A DNA stretch of 64,000 bases from Myxococcaceae bacterium (GCA_017500825.1 JAFVYB010000111.1:1-64000); one strand, 5' to 3'; shown: positions 17,990 through 28,651, counted from the stretch's first letter. Made by a program: numbers and translations. Notes: generated by a model from the letters alone, not told the origin.

Positions 17990-19891
17990 ATGACGAAACG
18001 CCTTTCATTGATTTTAGGTTTGTCCGCCGCGCTCTCCGTGGGCGCCCTGGCCTGCGGCGAAGAAGAAGAGACTTCGGACATCGAATGCACTTCGGACGCG
18101 GATTGCGCTGGCAATACCGATGGAAAGACCACCTGCGACACGGCCAACAACGTCTGCATCGCGCCTGTCGCCACGGGGTGCACCTCGGACGCTGACTGCG
18201 CTGGCAATACCGACGGTAAGACCACCTGCAACACGGCCACCGGCGCCTGCGTCGTGCCCGCCAACGGCGGCTGCGCCACGAACGAGGACTGCGCCTCCGG
18301 GCTCTGCGAAAACAGCGTCTGCGCGACGACGAAGCTCGCCAATTGCACCGATCCTCAGATTGAGAACGCCACCGCGAGCACGGAATCGATGGTTCAGGTG
18401 ACCTTTGACGCGGCGACGAACACCTGGAGCGAGGCGGCCGCCTGCCCCTGGCTTTGCAACTTTGGCTACGAGAAGAATGCCGACGAGACTGCCTGCGAGG
18501 AGCTCCCCAAGTGCAAAAGCAATGAGGACTGCAACTCGAAGCTGTGCGACACCGATAACGGCTACTGCATGTTCCAAAAGACCGATCTCTGCGAGCCCTA
18601 CAGCGAGACAGAGCTGGCCGAGCTCAACGCGACGGCGCAGGACGAGACGACGCAGGTGTCATGGCACTACATCGAGTCGGCCAACGGCAATGCCAACTGG
18701 GTCGCCGAGCGCGGCTGCGCGCTGACCGGCTGCGTCGAGGGCTATGACTATCAAGAGGTGACCAACACCTGCGAGGCAGAGGTGACGGTCTGCAGCACGA
18801 ACGCGGACTGCGCGGACAACGGCACCAAGACCTGGTGCGAAGTTCCTGACGGCCAGAACGAGGGCGTCTGCATCGCGCCCGAATGCCAGACCTCGGCGCA
18901 GTGCACAGACGAGACCAAGCCCTACTGCGACCCCTACACCTTCAAGTGCACCGCCACGTGCCTCACGGACGAACAGTGCGTTGACATTCACGGCGAGGGG
19001 ATGATCTGCAACTGGGACACCACCACCGAAAATTCCTACACCTGCATTGCGGCGGAATGCGAAGCGGGCGAGTGCTCGGCTGACCTCCAATCGGAATGCG
19101 TCAATGGCCGTTGGTCGGAATGCAAGTCAGGCATGCAGTGTCTGGAAAGCGGCAGCGAAGGCCATCGTGGTTCCTGTCAGATTATGACCTCTGACCTGTG
19201 CGATCCTGCGTGCACTAACGATCAATTCTGTCGCGACAATGGCGAAACATCCGCTGAGGAGCGCTACACCTGCGAATGGGTCGACTCACAGCAGACAGCG
19301 CCTAAGCTCCGAATCAGCCAAGTTTACTTTGGTGGTTATGGCCATCTGAACACAGCCACCTATACGAACGGCTTTGTTGAGATTTACAATTATGGATCCG
19401 ATACAATCAATCTGGGCGCCAGCAACCTGGCCATGGTCCGGGGAACTCGTAATGGTGGTTTCCAGATTTGGGTGGACTTCCAAAATGCCTGCTCCACAAA
19501 AACCTGCGAAGTCGCCGCCAAGAGCTACTTCCGCATCAAGATCGACACCAACAATGTAGATAGCGCCACACCTCTCACCAACAACGATCTCGAAATCAGC
19601 GATAAGCCCAGCATTGACGGATCGCTGGCAATCATTACCGACAGAACTAAAGATCTGACCGGTATCAGCTGTCACGAGATCAAATCGCTCTCCGTCGATC
19701 TCATCGGTATGTCGAGCGTCTTCTGCGCTGAGGATCGCCCTGCGGTTGGCATTCCCGGCGATGTCGCATCGGGCGAGGAAGGCAATCGCGGCACGCACTC
19801 GTATCAGCGTAACTCCAGCCTGGACGACACGGGCGACAATTACACCGACTTCGAGGTCAAGCCCGTCGCTCCCGGCAAGCCGCTTAATTAA
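17990..19891 (+). CDS. Secreted Cys-rich repeat lipoprotein with lamin-tail domain
   Basis: 633 aa. The signal peptide ends in the lipobox GALAC (Cys at about 22), followed by an acidic spacer EEEETSD. The next 400 residues are a string of short Cys-rich modules of the form CxxDxDC...C..., including two adjacent 31-residue copies. Residues about 440-600 match a lamin-tail (LTD) domain: LRISQVYFGGYGHLNTATYT, then FVEIYNYGSDTINLGASNLA. LTD domains are common in large secreted bacterial proteins, often beside nucleases or adhesins; here no enzyme is attached. The protein is probably on the outer membrane or cell surface, cross-linked by many disulfides. It is flanked by its own promoter and terminator. 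The LTD part is less GC-rich than the Cys-rich part. Function unknown. Confidence 0.82.
   Translation: MTKRLSLILGLSAALSVGALACGEEEETSDIECTSDADCAGNTDGKTTCDTANNVCIAPVATGCTSDADCAGNTDGKTTCNTATGACVVPANGGCATNEDCASGLCENSVCATTKLANCTDPQIENATASTESMVQVTFDAATNTWSEAAACPWLCNFGYEKNADETACEELPKCKSNEDCNSKLCDTDNGYCMFQKTDLCEPYSETELAELNATAQDETTQVSWHYIESANGNANWVAERGCALTGCVEGYDYQEVTNTCEAEVTVCSTNADCADNGTKTWCEVPDGQNEGVCIAPECQTSAQCTDETKPYCDPYTFKCTATCLTDEQCVDIHGEGMICNWDTTTENSYTCIAAECEAGECSADLQSECVNGRWSECKSGMQCLESGSEGHRGSCQIMTSDLCDPACTNDQFCRDNGETSAEERYTCEWVDSQQTAPKLRISQVYFGGYGHLNTATYTNGFVEIYNYGSDTINLGASNLAMVRGTRNGGFQIWVDFQNACSTKTCEVAAKSYFRIKIDTNNVDSATPLTNNDLEISDKPSIDGSLAIITDRTKDLTGISCHEIKSLSVDLIGMSSVFCAEDRPAVGIPGDVASGEEGNRGTHSYQRNSSLDDTGDNYTDFEVKPVAPGKPLN
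18086..18271 (+). repeat. Two tandem 93-bp coding repeats
   Basis: 18086-18178 and 18179-18271 encode near-identical 31-residue units starting CTSDADCAGNTDGKTTC. The copies differ mainly at third bases and in the last ten codons. The repeat is in frame, so copy number could vary without disrupting the lipoprotein. Confidence 0.8.
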
Positions 19892-19923: not shown

Positions 19924-19956
19924 AAACCGATGTCCTTTAGAGGGCATCGGTTTTTT
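19924..19956 (+). terminator. Rho-independent terminator
   Basis: A 12-bp stem (19924-19935 with 19942-19953, one T-G pair) is closed by a 6-nt loop and runs into six T (19951-19956). It lies 33 bp after the stop of the Cys-repeat lipoprotein and separates it from the PqqD cassette. Confidence 0.9.
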
Positions 19957-20086: not shown

Positions 20087-20419
20087 ATGTCCTCCCCCAC
20101 CCCTCTCCTCGACAGATTTCCGCGGCCAACGCCCTCGGCGGCGCGGGAGACGGTCGATGGGCACAGCATGATCGCCACCGAAGCGGGCGATCTCCTCTCC
20201 TTTTGGAGAGACGCGGGGGATGACGACGCCAGCGCCGTGGCGGAGTGCGCGCTCGAACTTGCGGATGGCTCGCGCTCGATCCGTGACATCGCCGCCCGCG
20301 TGAGCGCTGAGTTTCAAGTGAGCGAGGCACGCGCGCAGGAGGATTTGTGCGCGTTCTTTCTCGATCTCGAAAACGCCCAGGCCTTTGTGCTTGGGGACGC
20401 GCCCTCCAGCCACGCCTGA
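20087..20419 (+). CDS. PqqD-family peptide-binding (RRE-like) protein
   Basis: 110 aa. The core from about residue 20 to 98 has the PqqD layout: a beta strand (ETVDGHSMIATEAGDLLSFW), a helix with AVAECALELADGSRSIRDIA, then ARVSAEFQVSEARAQEDLCA and a closing helix to LENAQAFVL. PqqD-like domains bind leader peptides and deliver precursors to modifying enzymes (PqqA in PQQ synthesis, lasso B1 proteins). There is no signal peptide, so it is cytoplasmic. It opens a + strand run that also contains a small YxxPxL peptide, an HPr-kinase-like protein and an S26-type peptidase, which is why a RiPP-like role is suspected. No radical-SAM PqqE or asparagine synthetase is in the window. Confidence 0.75.
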   Translation: MSSPTPLLDRFPRPTPSAARETVDGHSMIATEAGDLLSFWRDAGDDDASAVAECALELADGSRSIRDIAARVSAEFQVSEARAQEDLCAFFLDLENAQAFVLGDAPSSHA

Positions 20420-20502
20420 CCGAATGACGGGAGCGGTGGAGCCGACAACGCACGGCCATCCAGCGCCCCACCCTTGTCTCTGCCCAGAAAGAGAAGCCCG
20501 CG

Positions 20503-23500
20503 ATGATGACTCGACGACACCTCAGCTCTCTGTTCACCCTGCTGTGCATCGCCTCCAGCGCGCTTGTCGCCGCCTGTTCGCGCGACACGCCGACCGAGCT
20601 CCGCGTGCCAGCCATCGAGTTTATCTCCCCCACGGACGGCGCCGCGCTCTCCTGGAACGACGACACGGGTCTGACGACTGCGGGCTTTCAGATCGACATC
20701 GCCGGGGTGCTGAGCGGGTTCGACAGCCTTGAAGGCGCCGCCCTCAGCCTCGCGATTGACGGCCAAACGAGCGCCGCGCGGGCCACGCTCAGGGGCGACG
20801 CGTTTGCCTTCGAGCAGGTCACGCTGGCAGGCGGCACGCGAAAAATCGCCGTCTTTGCGCACACCGCGCGCCAAAACGCCTCGGCCGAGATCACCGTCAC
20901 GGTTCCCGAGGGTGAGCCGACGGGCGAGGCTGCTGTCGAAATCCTGACGCCTGAGAGCGGAAAGCTCTTTGCCTGGAGCGAGGACAGCGATGTCGAAGCG
21001 GCGCGCTTCCAGTTCAACCTCTCGGGCAAGCTGCACAACATGCCGATCGGCGAAGCGGCACCAACGGTGAGTGTCAAGATCGATGGCGCGCTCATCGAGA
21101 CGACGGTCAACGTCACGCCCGCAGAGGACAGCGCGTCGAGCCATTTCAGCGCCCATGGCGTCACGATCGACCCCGGGGTTCATCAGATTGTCGTCGAGGC
21201 AGCCCAGGGAGAACGCCGCGCCTTTGCCCAAATTTACATCGCGCTCTCGCCCGCATCGGACAGCGTCGAGGACGCCTACGCGATCGCGATCGATTCGCCC
21301 CAAAACGGCGCTGTTCTCGACTGGAGCCAAGACGCGCAGAGCGAGGTGTCGGGCTTCCAACTCGATGTGGAGGGCACCCTGCGCGGCTTTGGAGCCGAGG
21401 CCAGCGTCACCATTTCCCGCAACGGACTTGCGATCGAGGCCGTTCCCTTCCGCAACAGCGAGGCGAGCTACAGCTTCCCCGCCATCTCCCTGCCCGCCGG
21501 CCAGCAAGTGCTCATCGTCACGGCCAGCGAGACGATCGAGGGACAGCAGGTCCAGCGCGAGGCACTCGCCGTGATCGCCGTGCCCGAACAGCGTCCGATC
21601 GAGGGACTCGCCGTCGAGATCTCCTCCCCGACGAACAACGCCTCCCTGGCGCTGTCCGAGGACGCCGATCCCGCGCTCGACGGGTTTCAGATCGACATCG
21701 CGGGCACCCTGCTGACGACCGTGGCGGCGATGAATGAGACATCGCTCTCGCTGCAGATTGACGGTGTGAATCACGAGGGCGTGATCGCGACCATCGAGGC
21801 GGCCAGCCAGGACGGCGAGCCTCTGCCGCCAGAGGACACGGAAATCGTCCGCGCGTTTCGCTTCGCCAACGTCACCCTGCCGAGCGGAATCCACGAGATT
21901 GTCGTGCTCGCCAGCCAGAAGGAGACGCAGGCGCTCGATCAGATCACCATCGCCATTCCCGCGTCGATCAGTGGCCTGCCCGCTGGCGAGATCACCTCGC
22001 CTGTCAACGGCACCGCGCTGAGCCTGACGGACGGCCGCGCCCGCGTCGATGTCACAGGTGTCTACACAAACGCACAGACACTCACCCTTCTTATCAACGG
22101 CCAGCCGAGCGGCACGGTCGAGGCAGCCATGCCCCAGGGCGGCACCTTCACCTTCCCCGGCGTCGAGCTGGTCGAAGGCATGCACGCGCTGCAGGTGCAG
22201 GTCAGCGGTCCGTCGTATCAGGCGTTCACGGAGACGGTGATTGTCCACGTCGCCGCCTTTGACATCCGCGTCTACTGGCCCACGGACATCGCGGCGATTT
22301 ACGCCAACGACTTGGGCGAGGCGGCGATCGAACTCGTGGGACAACTCCTCGGCTGCGATGGCTGTCTGGGCGCTCCCAGCATCACGGCCCACATCGAGAA
22401 TAGCGACGGCATCCAGAGCGAACATTCCCTTTCGCTCGACGCCAACCGCGCCTTCCGCCAGGCGCTGACCTTCTCCGCCGCCCATGGCAGCGCCACACTC
22501 GTCGTCCGCGCGCGCCAATCCATGCAGAGCGCTGACACTGGCGACACCTCGCCGACCTTCGAGGTCGAAAAACGCGTCGAGCTGACCATTCTCGCCGCCG
22601 ATCAAAAGCCCGCCTTTTCACTCACCATGACCTCGCCCTCCGACGGCAGCGTGCTGACCTGGCGCGACAACACCTCGTTCACGCAGGAGGACTTCCAGAT
22701 CAGCGTCGAGGCCAACGTCGCGGGGATGAACATCGGAGACGCGGACTTCGCGCTCTACGTCGACGGCGTTCAGCAGAAGAGCGGCACCTCGCAGGACTGC
22801 GCCCTGACGACCGACGATCAGTCTGTCATCGCCATCACCTGCCACCGCGTCGCGCTTCACAGCGGCACACGTCTCATCTCGCTCACCGCCACGGCCAAAT
22901 CCAACGGCAGACAGGTTGAGTCGCACGCCCTTGTCACTGTGCCCGAGCTCAGCGGCGAGAGCGCGTCCGAGCGCGTGATCATCGCCTTCCCCAGCGAAGG
23001 GACTGCGCTCCTCTGGTCGAGCGATCGCGCCTTTACCAGCGGCTTTCAGACCGACATCAGCGGCCGCTTCACAGGCTTCGGCAGCGATGTCGCGCTCACC
23101 CTCGCCATCGACGGCGAGAACAGCGACGCTGTGGCCGCGATCGGCGCCAACGTCTTCACCTTCCGCGATGTCACCCTGCCAAGCGGCAGCCGCACCCTGA
23201 AAGTCACCGCCAGGCAGGGCAGCGGCGAGAGCGAGCTTGTTGCCAGCGACGAGATCACCGTGGTGGTCCCTGACCCGCAATCGATCGAGCTCACCAGCGA
23301 GCGCATCGAAGGCGACGAATCGTCCCGGGGCACCCGCCTGAACGGCACGCTCGTCAACTTCAGCGGGGAGGCCATGTTTACGCTCGACGTCTATGTCGAC
23401 GGCGTCCGGGCCATGGAGCGGACAGATGCGCTGACAGCGGAACAAATCGCCGTCGGCACGTTCGATCTCACGCTGCCGGACAGCGAGCTGAACCTCTCCA

Positions 23501-26085
23501 GCGAGGGCGACTGCCACTACCTCACCTTCGCGCTCGCCGGCACCGAGGGGCAAAACGAGAGCACGGCCGTGACGAACCTGGTGGTCGGCGACTGCGAGAC
23601 AACCCCCAAGGTGATCCTCATCACCAGCCCCCACAACGGCAGCGAGCTGCGCATCGCCAACAGCAACAGCGTCCTCCTGGCCGTCACAGGCGTCCTGCTC
23701 GGCTATTCGGATGAGGAGCTGCAGACGCTCCAGCTCACGCTCGGCGCCCACGAGTGCCAGATCGTCAGTGGGACAAGCGCCTTCAACTGCACGGCGGACT
23801 TCGCGGTTGGCCCGAACCAGATCACCGTCAGCGACGCGGCCAATGGCATCCACTCGGCATCGATCGACATCCAGGTCACGAACTCCACCGGCTGCCCAGT
23901 GACGCTCGCGCTCGACAACCTGCCGATCAACGAGGCCGGCGTGATCGAGTTCAATCGCCAGACCTCGGGCATCAGCCTCTTCCACGACCAGGGCGCGACC
24001 AAAGCCAGCTACCTCTTCTTCGGCAGCGTTCCGTCCGAGTGCGCCGGCGGCAGCGTCACCGTCCTCAAAAAACTGAGCGGCGGCAGCTACGAGACCGTCG
24101 AGACATCCCCCCACATCCAGGCTGACGGCAGCTTCGCCTACCGCGCCACGCTCAACGACGCGGAGACCGACGCCGAGCTCGCCTTCTCGGTCAGCATGGA
24201 GCACTTCGCGGCGGCCAGCGGCGCCCAGCTCACCTACACGGCCGACTTCACCGTCCCCCTCCTCATCGCTGGCGAGGGCGACACCTTCCAAATCGGCGCG
24301 ATGAACGCCCTGTCCCTGCGCCACGAAAGCGATCTCAGGGATGGCGGTCTGAAGGCCCGCGTCTCCACGAGCGACAACGGCGATGTCCTCGGCACCTTTG
24401 ATCTGACCTTCACGGCGCAGGGGCTCAGCCAGGACAGCATGACCGCCGACACGCTGACCATCGCCTACGACGGCAGCTCGACGCCCCTCCTCAGCGAGTC
24501 GATTCACCAGACAGCGGCAGGCGACAGCGAGCAGTTCACCCGCGCGATTTCCCTGCCCGAGGGCGACTGGACGATCTCAATCACCCTCGCCGACGCGGTC
24601 GGCAACAAGAGCACGGCCAGCTTCCCGATCCACGTCGATCTCGGCTGCAACGTGGCGCTCACCTCTCCCTTGCCCAACTCGGCCATCGCCATCGACGCCA
24701 ACACGCAACTCACCCTCAGTGGCACCTCGACCTGCGCCAGCGTCGCCTACGGCCTGCGCGTTGGAGCTGGCAGCGAGCCGACGAGCTGCGATCCCTCTGC
24801 TGAAACGGGCGACTTCAGCTGCGCGGTGGCATTGCCCGAAGGCCTGGGGATGCATGAAGCCGTCGAGGTCGCGCTCATCGCGCCCAACGGCGCCGAGCAG
24901 ACCGTCCGCGTGTTCCAGCACACCCTCAGCCAAGGCATCCAACACACCGCGCCAGTGCTGAAGGACAACGGCCTCGTCGTCGTTTCCCCGCACAACCGGC
25001 ACTGCGCCACCATCGACGAGACCACAAGCGCTTGCGCCACCGAGGGCTACGCCGCCGATCTCACCCCCGAAGACGACACCCAAGGCACCTTCCAGCTCAC
25101 CCTCACCGCCAGCGCGCCCACCGCCGGAAACGATGGGGAGAGCGGCGAGGCGAGCGACGAGTCTCAGGAGGGCGAAGGCACGCCAGTGCTGCCGTCAAGC
25201 GGCGACTACGACCAATTCAACTGCCGTTACCTGCTCGGCGACAAAGTGCTCGACATGACGAACTGCGAAATCTCCGCGGAAGGCGTCATCAATCAGCGGG
25301 TGAGCCTGCCTCAGGGCACGGTCGACGAATTCAGGGTCGAAATCACGGCCTCGCACAGCGAGAGCGGGCTTTCTGCCACCCTTCAGCTCAACTTCGGCGT
25401 CACCATCGCCTCACAGCGCCCGGCCAAGCCCGTCTTCCAGCTGCCCGAAGGCGGCGCCGTGGTCGACTGCGAGGAGGAAAGCGGCGCCTCCGTCACCTGC
25501 ATGCGCGACCGTCACCAGGGCGTCCTTGAGGTGTGGCTCGACGAAACCGCGCCCGGCATCACCCGCAAACGCGGCTTTGCGACGGGAACGGCCATCGCCA
25601 TCAACCACCCCAACAACAACACCGAGGCCTTTGACGATACGACCTTCAACGAAGGCACGCTGATGCATTGGTTCAGCGCCATTCCCATGGAAATCGACTC
25701 GCTCGAAACGCAAACATTGAATGTCACGCCGATGAATTACATCCACCTCGGCGCCCAGGACGAAGACGCCCACGGCAACTATTCAGAAATCGCCATCGTC
25801 AAGAGCGTCGATATGTTCTGGAATTCATTCAAGCGGACCTTTAGCGAGGAAAATGCGGCAATGAACATTATTTCCGACGCACCTGCTTCAGGATTGGAGT
25901 TTGCTCGTAAGATGGCCACTGGCGATCTGAACGGCGATGGCGTCGATGACATTGTCGTCTCCGCGCCCAATGCAACGGATTCATTCCTGATGATCTATTA
26001 TGGCTCCACGGCCAGGGCATCACCGCCGACGCAAACAAAAAACAAATCATCAACCCAGACGAAATATATTTTGGCACAGCATTAA
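20503..26085 (+). CDS. Giant Ig-like repeat lipoprotein, N-terminal part, frame ends early in an FG-GAP domain
   Basis: 1860 aa. The signal peptide ends in lipobox LVAAC (Cys25), so the protein is lipidated and outside the cytoplasm. At least seven repeated beta-sandwich-like units of about 110-120 residues start near 35, 144, 259, 369, 494, 706 and 824; they share a pattern like ISPTDGAALSW followed by GFQIDIAGTL. Later repeats are more divergent. Near residue 1800 an FG-GAP/integrin-like repeat begins (GDLNGDGVDDIVVSAP), then the frame ends in an unrelated tail, STARASPPTQTKNKSSTQ. The FG-GAP sequence continues in the -1 frame to 27200. A full product would be about 2230 aa. Likely a surface adhesin or scaffold. 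It follows the PqqD gene by 83 bp. Confidence 0.85.
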   Translation: MMTRRHLSSLFTLLCIASSALVAACSRDTPTELRVPAIEFISPTDGAALSWNDDTGLTTAGFQIDIAGVLSGFDSLEGAALSLAIDGQTSAARATLRGDAFAFEQVTLAGGTRKIAVFAHTARQNASAEITVTVPEGEPTGEAAVEILTPESGKLFAWSEDSDVEAARFQFNLSGKLHNMPIGEAAPTVSVKIDGALIETTVNVTPAEDSASSHFSAHGVTIDPGVHQIVVEAAQGERRAFAQIYIALSPASDSVEDAYAIAIDSPQNGAVLDWSQDAQSEVSGFQLDVEGTLRGFGAEASVTISRNGLAIEAVPFRNSEASYSFPAISLPAGQQVLIVTASETIEGQQVQREALAVIAVPEQRPIEGLAVEISSPTNNASLALSEDADPALDGFQIDIAGTLLTTVAAMNETSLSLQIDGVNHEGVIATIEAASQDGEPLPPEDTEIVRAFRFANVTLPSGIHEIVVLASQKETQALDQITIAIPASISGLPAGEITSPVNGTALSLTDGRARVDVTGVYTNAQTLTLLINGQPSGTVEAAMPQGGTFTFPGVELVEGMHALQVQVSGPSYQAFTETVIVHVAAFDIRVYWPTDIAAIYANDLGEAAIELVGQLLGCDGCLGAPSITAHIENSDGIQSEHSLSLDANRAFRQALTFSAAHGSATLVVRARQSMQSADTGDTSPTFEVEKRVELTILAADQKPAFSLTMTSPSDGSVLTWRDNTSFTQEDFQISVEANVAGMNIGDADFALYVDGVQQKSGTSQDCALTTDDQSVIAITCHRVALHSGTRLISLTATAKSNGRQVESHALVTVPELSGESASERVIIAFPSEGTALLWSSDRAFTSGFQTDISGRFTGFGSDVALTLAIDGENSDAVAAIGANVFTFRDVTLPSGSRTLKVTARQGSGESELVASDEITVVVPDPQSIELTSERIEGDESSRGTRLNGTLVNFSGEAMFTLDVYVDGVRAMERTDALTAEQIAVGTFDLTLPDSELNLSSEGDCHYLTFALAGTEGQNESTAVTNLVVGDCETTPKVILITSPHNGSELRIANSNSVLLAVTGVLLGYSDEELQTLQLTLGAHECQIVSGTSAFNCTADFAVGPNQITVSDAANGIHSASIDIQVTNSTGCPVTLALDNLPINEAGVIEFNRQTSGISLFHDQGATKASYLFFGSVPSECAGGSVTVLKKLSGGSYETVETSPHIQADGSFAYRATLNDAETDAELAFSVSMEHFAAASGAQLTYTADFTVPLLIAGEGDTFQIGAMNALSLRHESDLRDGGLKARVSTSDNGDVLGTFDLTFTAQGLSQDSMTADTLTIAYDGSSTPLLSESIHQTAAGDSEQFTRAISLPEGDWTISITLADAVGNKSTASFPIHVDLGCNVALTSPLPNSAIAIDANTQLTLSGTSTCASVAYGLRVGAGSEPTSCDPSAETGDFSCAVALPEGLGMHEAVEVALIAPNGAEQTVRVFQHTLSQGIQHTAPVLKDNGLVVVSPHNRHCATIDETTSACATEGYAADLTPEDDTQGTFQLTLTASAPTAGNDGESGEASDESQEGEGTPVLPSSGDYDQFNCRYLLGDKVLDMTNCEISAEGVINQRVSLPQGTVDEFRVEITASHSESGLSATLQLNFGVTIASQRPAKPVFQLPEGGAVVDCEEESGASVTCMRDRHQGVLEVWLDETAPGITRKRGFATGTAIAINHPNNNTEAFDDTTFNEGTLMHWFSAIPMEIDSLETQTLNVTPMNYIHLGAQDEDAHGNYSEIAIVKSVDMFWNSFKRTFSEENAAMNIISDAPASGLEFARKMATGDLNGDGVDDIVVSAPNATDSFLMIYYGSTARASPPTQTKNKSSTQTKYILAQH
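26037..26043 (+). other. In-phase slippery heptamer A_AAA_AAC
   Basis: In the reading frame of the giant lipoprotein, codons ACA AAA AAC (26035-26043) form a canonical -1 slippery heptamer 40 bases before the zero-frame stop at 26083-26085. A -1 slip here continues directly into the FG-GAP frame (CAA ATC ATC AAC). No strong downstream pseudoknot was recognised by eye. The site may be chance; see findings. Confidence 0.45.
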
Positions 26086-26162
26086 GCGTTCTTGATATCG
26101 ATCACGATGGTTACGACGATCTCGTCGTCACAGCGAATTATTTCCAAAAAATCTTCATTTAT

Positions 26163-27200
26163 TTGGGCTCTTCGTCAGGCATCTCTGACGCCGCATTAAC
26201 TATTAATTCCCAATATTGCCATAACCCTGACTACTGCTATGGATTTGTAAACGTCGAAAAAATCAGTGACATCAACCGCGATGGTTACCCTGATCTCGTG
26301 TTTTCCGAAGCGACACTGTATCCTCTTACAATGAACAATACATTCGTCGTCACGACAAAACCGGAATTGCGCAATCAATTAGCCGCTACAGCTGCCACTC
26401 TCAGTGATATTGGCGAATACATGATCGCCAGCAATACAACTGAAGGACTCGGCTATGCCTATACCGAACTTGTCGGACATAACATCGCCAGCTTCAAAAC
26501 GCCTCAACATGCAACGAGCGATGGCTTAATTATCGGCAGTTATTTTGGCGACGATCAAACGGGGCACAATGTTTATTTCTTTGATGGCGCGACACTGACC
26601 GAAAAATGCGCGATTCATATTGACGTCGACAGCGGCAATTCCTTCGGATGCACGACAGCGGATGCGACGCAGGTCATCGCCAAGCCGGAAAACAGCGCAA
26701 CGCAAAAGTTTGGCCGGGCGCTCGCCGTGCTCGATTATAATAATGACGGCCTCGACGATCTCTTCATCGGCATGCCTTCTGAAGATTCCCAGGACAGTAA
26801 TTTTGTCTTCGACAACGACGTGGTCCTGGCGCAGGCAGTCGCCAATGAATCGGGATTCACCTTTAATTCGCCCGTTCAGTTCAATGCTGCCGATTTCGAT
26901 CGCGGTTTCTTTGGCGAAAATCTCATTTCCGCCAATTTGCTTGGCGATGGTTATGAAGCGTTGATCGTCGGCGGCTATTCCTCGGTCGACGACCGTCTGC
27001 ACATCTTCTGGAACAATGCAGCCAATGGGCTCAGCCGCGATTACGGTTCCATCATCGAGGGCCCGGCCACCTTTGGCTATTCACTGGCGACCGGCGATTT
27101 CAATGGCGACGGCAGGCTCGATCTCGTGGTCGGCGCGCCGAGTTATGAGAATTTTGGTGGTTCTGGCGATAAGAATGGAGAATTCCATGTCTATTACTGA
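26163..27200 (+). CDS. FG-GAP repeat continuation of the giant lipoprotein (frame -1)
   Basis: 345 aa counted from a TTG, but the coding frame is open and FG-GAP-like from about 26001, so this is not a separate gene. The part before 26163 reads ALSVLDIDHDGYDDLVVTAN and so already contains a complete calcium-binding FG-GAP loop. Further copies are DINRDGYPDLVFSEA, DYNNDGLDDLFIGMP and DFNGDGRLDLVVGAP. There is no ribosome binding site, signal peptide or ATG. Together these form a beta-propeller typical of integrin-like and polysaccharide- or protein-binding surface domains. It probably belongs to the protein starting at 20503, by programmed frameshift, recent mutation or sequence error. Base composition is more AT-rich than the repeat region upstream. 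The end overlaps the following small gene by 14 bp. Confidence 0.75.
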   Translation: MGSSSGISDAALTINSQYCHNPDYCYGFVNVEKISDINRDGYPDLVFSEATLYPLTMNNTFVVTTKPELRNQLAATAATLSDIGEYMIASNTTEGLGYAYTELVGHNIASFKTPQHATSDGLIIGSYFGDDQTGHNVYFFDGATLTEKCAIHIDVDSGNSFGCTTADATQVIAKPENSATQKFGRALAVLDYNNDGLDDLFIGMPSEDSQDSNFVFDNDVVLAQAVANESGFTFNSPVQFNAADFDRGFFGENLISANLLGDGYEALIVGGYSSVDDRLHIFWNNAANGLSRDYGSIIEGPATFGYSLATGDFNGDGRLDLVVGAPSYENFGGSGDKNGEFHVYY

Positions 27201-27390
27201 GACAATGCGCCTAGCGAATGACGCCGATACATTGGCGCCGCAGGAACAATTCATGCGACGTCCCTATGCGCGGCCAGTCCTCCACCGCGATCAGCTTCTC
27301 GGCCCCATCCTCTGCGCCTCTCAGGGACAGGGCCATCAGCCGGACGCGGACACCCCTTGCCTGCCGCCCGGCGCGCCCTGGTGTCAGTGA
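27187..27390 (+). CDS. Small peptide with YxxPxL motif, candidate RiPP-like precursor
   Basis: 67 aa, too short for a recognisable domain. GGAG at 27177-27180, 6 nt before the ATG, supports translation; the gene overlaps the end of the FG-GAP frame by 14 bp, and its TGA overlaps a GTG start of the kinase (GTGA), a coupling arrangement. Residues 25-43 read RRPYARPVLHRDQLLGPIL with Tyr27, Pro30 and Leu32. YxxPxL is the leader signature recognised by PqqD-like RRE proteins in lasso peptides. The C-terminal part contains Cys43, Cys58 and Cys66 and ends TPCLPPGAPWCQ. A PqqD gene lies upstream, and a kinase and a peptidase follow directly. Being a precursor is inference from motif and context; it could also be a short regulatory or non-functional frame. 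Confidence 0.5.
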   Translation: MSITETMRLANDADTLAPQEQFMRRPYARPVLHRDQLLGPILCASQGQGHQPDADTPCLPPGAPWCQ

Positions 27391-28208
27391 CGCGCGTCGA
27401 TATGTCACCTCAGATATTGGCCCTCTTCCCGCAATTGTCGCTGCGGGTCGAAGCGCCGACAGAGCTCACGCCCTCCTGGCCGGTTGTCGCCGATCAGGGG
27501 GGCGGTCTTTGTCTGGGGGCAGCGCTGCGGTTGTTCGAGACGGGAAAGGCCTGTCCGAACGATGGACACTTGCTTGAGGCGCGCGAGCCAGAGCTCGGTT
27601 GGTATCGCCTGATCAGCCGGGCCCCGCTCTCTGTCGAATGTGGCGTGGGCGAAAACGTGCCCCGGGCCATCGACACCGCGGTGCGCCTCTGTGCGCTTTT
27701 ATGCGTCTGGACGCGTGGCGGATTGCTTTTGCACGCGGCGGCGCTCGCGCGCGATGGCCGGGCGTTTTTGTGCCTGGCGCCTTCTGGCGGTGGGAAGTCG
27801 ACCTTGACGACGCTCGCCGACGGCTTCGAGAGCCTGAGCGACGAGACCGTGGCCATTGTGCCGTCAGAAGACGGGAAAACCTTCACGTGTTGGGCGACCC
27901 CCTTTCGCAGCGCCTCCCCTCGCCCGCCCCAACCGATTGTCGCCGCGCTGGACGCCCTGCTCGTGCTCGACAAATCGCCTCTGCCGCGCGTCACGCCCCT
28001 CAACGGCATGGTGGCTCTCCAGGCGATCCTGCAGCAGGCCTACACCGTGCCACCGCTGGTGGGCGATCCGCCTTCGCTCCTCCGCCGCGCCGCGCGCATC
28101 GCCGCCGTTGTTCCGGCCCATCGCTTCCAGTTTCCCAAGTCTGAAGCGGCGCGCGCTCTCCTCGACGACATCGCCGCCGGACGTGTCGCCCCCCAAACGC
28201 TGACATGA
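27387..28208 (+). CDS. HPr-kinase-like P-loop serine kinase
   Basis: 273 aa from the GTG that overlaps the previous stop; an ATG at 27402 is the alternative. The C-terminal two thirds resemble the HprK/PCK-type kinase core: LLLHAAALARDGRAFLCLAP leads into the Walker A loop SGGGKST (about residues 133-139), followed by LSDETVAIV. This short form lacks the N-terminal HprK regulatory domain. Relatives occur in RiPP clusters, including the kinase that phosphorylates the paeninodin lasso peptide, and in other PqqD-linked cassettes. The substrate here is most likely a peptide or protein serine, perhaps the 67-residue product. It is cytoplasmic. Its TGA overlaps the ATG of the peptidase by 4 bp, so the two are cotranslated. 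Confidence 0.78.
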   Translation: MTRVDMSPQILALFPQLSLRVEAPTELTPSWPVVADQGGGLCLGAALRLFETGKACPNDGHLLEAREPELGWYRLISRAPLSVECGVGENVPRAIDTAVRLCALLCVWTRGGLLLHAAALARDGRAFLCLAPSGGGKSTLTTLADGFESLSDETVAIVPSEDGKTFTCWATPFRSASPRPPQPIVAALDALLVLDKSPLPRVTPLNGMVALQAILQQAYTVPPLVGDPPSLLRRAARIAAVVPAHRFQFPKSEAARALLDDIAAGRVAPQTLT

Positions 28209-28651
28209 CGCGATCCACGGACAAGGCGCCACTCGACGCGCTACGGGAGGCGATTTCGGGCGGTGGATTTGTGCGCGAGATCACGACGGGGAGCATGGCC
28301 CCTGTCCTTGTGCCGGGCGATCTCGTGCGCTTCACGCGTGGCGTGAGACTCCCTCGGGTGGGCGAAATCTGGGCCTTTGAATCGACCTCGCGCGGTCATC
28401 ACATCGCTCACCGCGTGATTGGCCGACGCGCTGACGGACGCGTGTTGATGAAGGGCGACAACCTCCTCTGGCCAGATGGCTGGATCGACCAGAAACGCCT
28501 CTTTGGTCCGGCTTTGGAGCGCCGCCGCGATGGCCGCTGGCAATCTCTGACAGGCCGACGAACGCGGGCACGGGGACTTGTTCGCTCAGCGCTGGGCAGC
28601 CTGCGGCTCGTGCTCGCCAAGGTGGCAGCTCTGGCATCGCCGACGCGCTGA
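28205..28651 (+). CDS. S24/S26-family peptidase, SipW-like Ser-His type
   Basis: 148 aa. The catalytic serine is in TTGSMAPVLVPGD (Ser30), the usual SMxP box of signal peptidases. The second box is HIAHRVIG (His69) followed by VLMKGDN and WPDGW, which matches the Ser-His arrangement of SipW and ER-type signal peptidases rather than the Ser-Lys dyad of LepB. No N-terminal membrane anchor is present; a weakly hydrophobic stretch occurs near the C-terminus (SALGSLRLVLAKVAALA). It starts inside the stop codon of the HprK-like gene (ATGA), so it works with it. In this cassette it may cleave a leader peptide or a modified precursor. The Arg-rich tail RRRDGRWQSLTGRRTRARG is unusual. Confidence 0.78.
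   Translation: MTRSTDKAPLDALREAISGGGFVREITTGSMAPVLVPGDLVRFTRGVRLPRVGEIWAFESTSRGHHIAHRVIGRRADGRVLMKGDNLLWPDGWIDQKRLFGPALERRRDGRWQSLTGRRTRARGLVRSALGSLRLVLAKVAALASPTR

Follow-up and report, generated by a model that had tools for sequence, protein, structure and literature searches.

A probable LPP-like RiPP cassette paired with a giant surface lipoprotein gene in Myxococcales

Introduction

What does a bacterium make from a cassette in which a PqqD-fold protein, a giant lipoprotein, a small peptide, an HprK-like kinase and an S26 peptidase are encoded one after another? This question was raised by a 64-kb stretch of Myxococcaceae DNA (hereafter the window), in which a sequence-only reading had proposed an undescribed RiPP-like system with new chemistry. 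Linear Polyphosphorylated Peptides (LPP; lppA, K, B, S, D and N) have been described experimentally, and the family was regarded by its authors as restricted to Bacillota (Popov et al., Nat Commun 2026, PMC13381572). Since LPP already shows Ser polyphosphorylation and RRE-dependent leader cleavage by a SipW-type peptidase (PMC13381572), the claim of new chemistry is not supported. We consider it probable that the cassette is an LPP-like RiPP system, with a chemistry that is probably already known and a lineage, architecture and surface-protein partner that are new.

Results and discussion

Layout of the cassette

The cassette consists of five genes arranged head to tail on the plus strand (20087-28651). 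The precursor start overlaps the stop of the giant gene by 14 nt in the window and has GGAG on its 5' side, the kinase GTG at 27387 overlaps the stop codon of the peptide (GTGA), and the peptidase ATG at 28205 overlaps that of the kinase (ATGA), so that the one-strand layout and both overlaps described earlier are seen in the sequence.

A gene for a Cys-rich lipoprotein lies upstream (17990-19891), with a weak match to a lamin-tail domain and 43% identity to a gene upstream of the RRE in genome G002. Between this gene and the operon there is a terminator-like hairpin on the plus strand (19924-19953) whose 13 pairs precede a T-rich tail, although the region as a whole is no better than the shuffle expectation. 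We did not include this gene in the operon, because a homologue upstream of the RRE was found only in G002, which belongs to the same genus, and because the hairpin intervenes.

The precursor peptide and its predicted core

The precursor gene (27187-27390, plus strand) encodes 67 amino acids including a YARPVL motif, and starts with ATG behind the GGAG ribosome binding site, as had been claimed. We looked for the kinase in 117 relatives and examined 36 regions of up to 20 kb, which together with the window gave 37 loci. In 26 of these, a small ORF with the pattern Y..P.[LIVM] lies upstream of the kinase, versus 18 of 3420 control windows (0.5%). Hand inspection allowing variant motifs placed a precursor ORF in 34 of the 37, and all nine kinase loci found later by profile (9/9) also carry a YxxPx[VLI] ORF. 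The control windows and the later loci rule out a chance peptide ORF. Homologous YxxPxL peptides, whose absence beside orthologous kinase and peptidase genes was to count against the sequence-only reading, are present.

The aligned peptides show the leader trend Y-x-x-P-x-[VLI]-x-[ST]-E-x-[LI]-[LF]-x-[PA]-x-[LA] when counted from the Tyr, with YxxP in 26 of 27, and the window peptide reads Y27ARPVL32. Cleavage of LppA falls 16 residues past its Tyr-16, and the phosphate is placed on Ser3 of the core (PMC13381572). In the LppA register, the window peptide would be cleaved after L42 to leave the core CASQGQGHQPDADTPCLPPGAPWCQ, with S45 as the predicted phosphosite; S45 lies exactly at Tyr+18 and is core position 3, like Ser3 of LppA. 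A Ser or Thr stands at Tyr+18 to +20 (core positions 3-5) in 25/27 peptides against a shuffle mean of 9.8, and at core positions 3-4 in 22/27 against 7.0 (12/17 against 4.8 in a hand-picked reduced set); only position 3, at which 11/27 peptides have Ser or Thr, had been predicted beforehand from LppA, while positions 4-5 were spotted before their test. Around the predicted cleavage site, position -3 is Pro or Ala in 23/27 peptides and position -1 is Leu or Ala in 24/27, and one clade has A-L-A (AxA) there. Signal peptidases favour AxA-type residues at -3/-1.

At least two Cys residues occur in 23/27 cores. This raises the alternative that phospho-Ser is only an intermediate, whose elimination gives dehydroalanine that a core Cys captures in a lanthionine-like manner, as in class III/IV lanthipeptides. 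The conserved Ser/Thr beside Cys in the cores would suit such a route, but the cassette has no conserved lyase or cyclase gene and LppK leaves the phosphate on Ser (PMC13381572), and we regard lanthionine formation as very unlikely.

The leader-binding protein

The first gene encodes a discrete RRE, a PqqD-fold leader-binding protein of 110 aa (20087-20419, plus strand). Its match to Pfam PF05402 at 27.6 bits, above the cut-off of 23.4, bears out the earlier assignment to the PqqD fold. The family profile matches the solved lasso B1 proteins TbiB1 and TfuB1, PqqD, and LppB (9x8z), with TbiB1 as the best structure. The AF2 model (pLDDT 83) adopts the TbiB1 fold with a TM of 0.82 by target, and Foldseek gave an E of about 2e-3 yet a probability of 1.00 for this small domain. 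The residues D86 and F90 are near-invariant and align with the D-x-x-x-F of LppB (D70/F74). In LppB the leader Tyr is bonded by D70, and its Pro is packed against F74. Profile, fold and the D86/F90 pair all support the earlier idea that this protein is an RRE with the peptide as its likely ligand.

The kinase

The kinase gene (27387-28208, plus strand) encodes 273 aa, which match the NCBIfam families HprK_rel_A at 34 bits (cut-off 200) and ScmC at 33 bits (cut-off 125), both far under the cut-off. The AF2 model (pLDDT 90) matches PEPCK and HprK structures, and H116, the P-loop residues G136, K137 and T139, and D152 and E153 are invariant. The protein thus has the PEPCK/HprK fold with a P-loop, and its earlier description as an HprK-like kinase is sound, while HprK relatives may have other substrates. 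The nearest named relatives in a profile search of genome contigs, made with a 5-row kinase alignment, were Myxococcales MAGs such as Hm464_bin50 and UBA1203, and a plasmid search with the kinase gave no match.

The peptidase and its fusions

The last gene (28205-28651, plus strand) encodes a putative leader peptidase of 148 aa, of the S26 SipW/SEC11 type (archaeal-type SpI). TIGR02228 was matched at 1.4e-6, and the family profile matches SEC11A/C at 2.4e-10. In the family alignment the Ser-His-Asp triad is intact (S30, H69 and D85), in agreement with the earlier S26 assignment; the triad of LppS is S29, H68 and D93 (PMC13381572). The highest 19-residue hydropathy is 1.46, so that a clear membrane anchor is lacking.

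The position of this gene varies among the loci. It adjoins the kinase gene in the family of the window and in G005, lies 5' of the RRE in loci of a second architecture, and is fused to the kinase in G012 (L047, G012:C109). In many other loci, a GNAT acetyltransferase protein encoded downstream of the kinase carries the peptidase as its N-terminal domain. The peptidase is a core part of the cassette, and the GNAT fusion suggests that the freshly cut core may be N-acetylated in a step coupled to leader removal.

Some further features of these proteins were observed. The peptidase domain of the GNAT fusions (L036-L046 and L050) is S24-like. The kinase fusion of L047 contains an S24-type peptidase with Cys replacing the nucleophile Ser (GTCMW), and Cys is likewise found in L055 (GACMW).

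Comparison with known peptide systems

The combination of leader motif, RRE and HprK-type kinase is also that of paeninodin-type phosphorylated lasso clusters, and the best structure for the RRE profile is a lasso protein. The locus could on this account be a degenerate or minimal lasso cluster of the paeninodin kind, with its cyclase and B2 protease elsewhere in the genome. Several observations are at odds with such a cluster. First, neither a cyclase nor a B2 protease was found among the window neighbours or the sampled genes of the relatives' loci. Second, the peptidase is of the SEC11 type, another class than in paeninodin-type clusters. Third, the core has no obvious lasso register, that is, Gly1 with Asp or Glu at 7-9. 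Finally, paeninodin leaders carry WxxP, while 26/27 peptides here have YxxP. We therefore rejected the lasso assignment for want of a cyclase and a B2 protease among the genes sampled, and consider a lasso product extremely improbable. The earlier statement that a lasso cyclase, a B2 protease and a radical SAM enzyme are missing holds for the window cassette, and for the cyclase and the B2 protease also for its neighbours.

Other systems share single parts with the cassette. The kinase weakly resembles HprK_rel_A and ScmC and the RREs weakly resemble PqqD families, as in the SynChlorMet (ScmA-F)/HprK-rel-A systems of NCBIfam, but all scores are far under the curated cut-offs and the window cassette has no radical SAM gene. 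The PqqD fold is common to PqqA/PqqD of PQQ biosynthesis, whereas no PqqE or PqqC adjoins the cassette and the window peptide has no Glu/Tyr crosslink motif like that of PqqA. A PQQ-type or radical-SAM peptide was rejected because the window cassette has no rSAM gene. rSAM-SPASM genes were seen only in some distant loci (L048, L061, L065 and L066).

The closest likeness is to LPP. Both systems have a discrete PqqD-fold RRE, a YxxPx[V/L] precursor (in the window with a Ser at Tyr+18, as in LppA), an HprK-like kinase (recognised here by its fold, with weak matches to sequence families), and a SipW-type SpI leader peptidase with a Ser-His-Asp triad, and neither has a macrolactam cyclase. Since this four-part set is known from LPP, the chemistry of the cassette is probably not new. 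There are also differences. Of the LPP precursor consensus YxxPxVLxHQxIxFETxxS, YxxPx[VLI] and a Ser at Tyr+18 are present here, HQxIxFET is absent, and the stretch LxHQxIxFET behind YxxPxV is not conserved. LPP clusters include an MsbA-like exporter and an NTP transferase, whereas the myxobacterial cassette has neither nearby: ORFs with ABC-transporter signatures were found in none of the 37 loci, no NTP transferase was seen among the annotated neighbours in the window and the relatives' loci, and the genes flanking the window cassette are ordinary, with no exporter. The cassette was accordingly classed as an LPP-like variant rather than as a full member. It further differs from LPP in belonging to Myxococcales instead of Bacillota, in its tie to a giant surface lipoprotein, in its peptidase-GNAT and kinase-peptidase fusions, and in looking vertically inherited rather than patchy.

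Pairing with the giant lipoprotein

The giant lipoprotein gene (20503-27200, plus strand) was recognised by its lipobox (LVAAC), its repeats and its homology, and encodes Ig-like repeats and C-terminal FG-GAP repeats. Although a giant surface lipoprotein had been correctly placed here, its gene is not a single ORF. Translation in frame 1 ends at 26085, and further FG-GAP repeats are encoded in another frame as far as 27200, which indicates one frameshift at about 26,000-26,015 that splits the gene into ORFs 20503-26085 and 26163-27200. The same-genus homologues (L031 and L032, in genomes G001 and G002) are unbroken and read through. Because the assembly of the window organism is a draft, 89% complete and in 125 contigs, the frameshift is possibly an assembly error, or else a real lesion.

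The suspected tie between the peptide and this lipoprotein is in keeping with a constant gene pairing. Both genes could be placed in 26 loci, and in 25 of them no more than 32 nt separate the precursor start from the stop of the giant gene, the exception being L062 (+75); no giant gene was called in L061. The pairing holds for two types of giant protein, namely Ig-like/FG-GAP lipoproteins and proteins of about 1000 aa with a BamB/PQQ-like propeller. Since the precursor gene overlaps or abuts the giant gene in nearly every locus, we infer that the most likely site of action of the peptide product is the cell surface, in concert with the giant lipoprotein.

In L054, L056, L058, L059 and L062-L064, a paralogous order was observed: peptidase, RRE, a small protein, the BamB/PQQ-like propeller protein of about 1000 aa, the precursor (WEQPFVALA) and the kinase. 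Both architectures co-occur in some genomes (G006, G067 and G112).

The same spacing, kept across the FG-GAP and BamB-like propeller families, could also mean that the cassette modifies the giant lipoprotein itself, either by attaching the processed peptide or a phosphate to it or by using the peptide as a maturation factor, so that no free product is made. However, no transpeptidase or ligase genes were seen in the cassette, and the enzymes look cytosolic, in contrast to the exported lipoprotein. We consider modification of the lipoprotein unlikely.

Distribution and inheritance

Kinase profile matches were found in 133 of the 195 genomes of the phylum, although the weaker matches may represent other kinases. 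The tree of the kinase tracks the taxonomic families and requires no extra change. EamA and metallo-beta-lactamase genes flank the cassette in several relatives, and the genus of the window lacks these flanks. The cassette appears to be vertically inherited, in contrast to LPP, whose history in Bacilli is one of patchy, unstable gain and loss (PMC13381572).

LPP-like modules seem to exist in Fermentibacterota too. Seven loci from Candidatus Aegiribacteria, Sabulitectum and Fermentibacteraceae (L074, L076, L078, L083, L085, L086 and L089) have an HprK-like kinase followed by an S24/S26-type peptidase, and most of them have one or two small ORFs with Y.KP.L...GW.AxC downstream.

Proposed pathway and implications

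Gene order, homology, folds, catalytic residues and conservation were observed directly, and the LPP-like pathway that we propose would run as follows. The RRE would bind the precursor leader via Y27-x-x-P30-x-L32, and the HprK-like kinase would phosphorylate a Ser or Thr near the start of the core, here S45. The SipW/SEC11-type peptidase may then cut the RRE-presented leader about 16 residues past the Tyr, after L42. The predicted product, about 25 aa long, is a linear phosphopeptide that contains Cys and would act at the cell surface with the giant lipoprotein.

These results take an LPP-like set beyond the reported Bacillota limit, to much of an order of Gram-negative bacteria, and provide two clues to its function: the constant association with a giant surface propeller protein, and the agreement of the kinase tree with families. 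They also offer predictions, namely the phosphosite, the cleavage site and, for one clade, acetylation of the N terminus by the peptidase-GNAT fusion. More tentatively, and as a possibility that we would not yet favour, the cassette might be a vertically inherited, core-like myxobacterial RiPP system. Its peptide, phosphorylated and in some clades perhaps also N-acetylated, might bind the co-translated giant beta-propeller surface lipoprotein as a ligand, tether it, or tag it for maturation, in which case the peptide would serve the surface of the producing cell rather than act as a secreted antibiotic.
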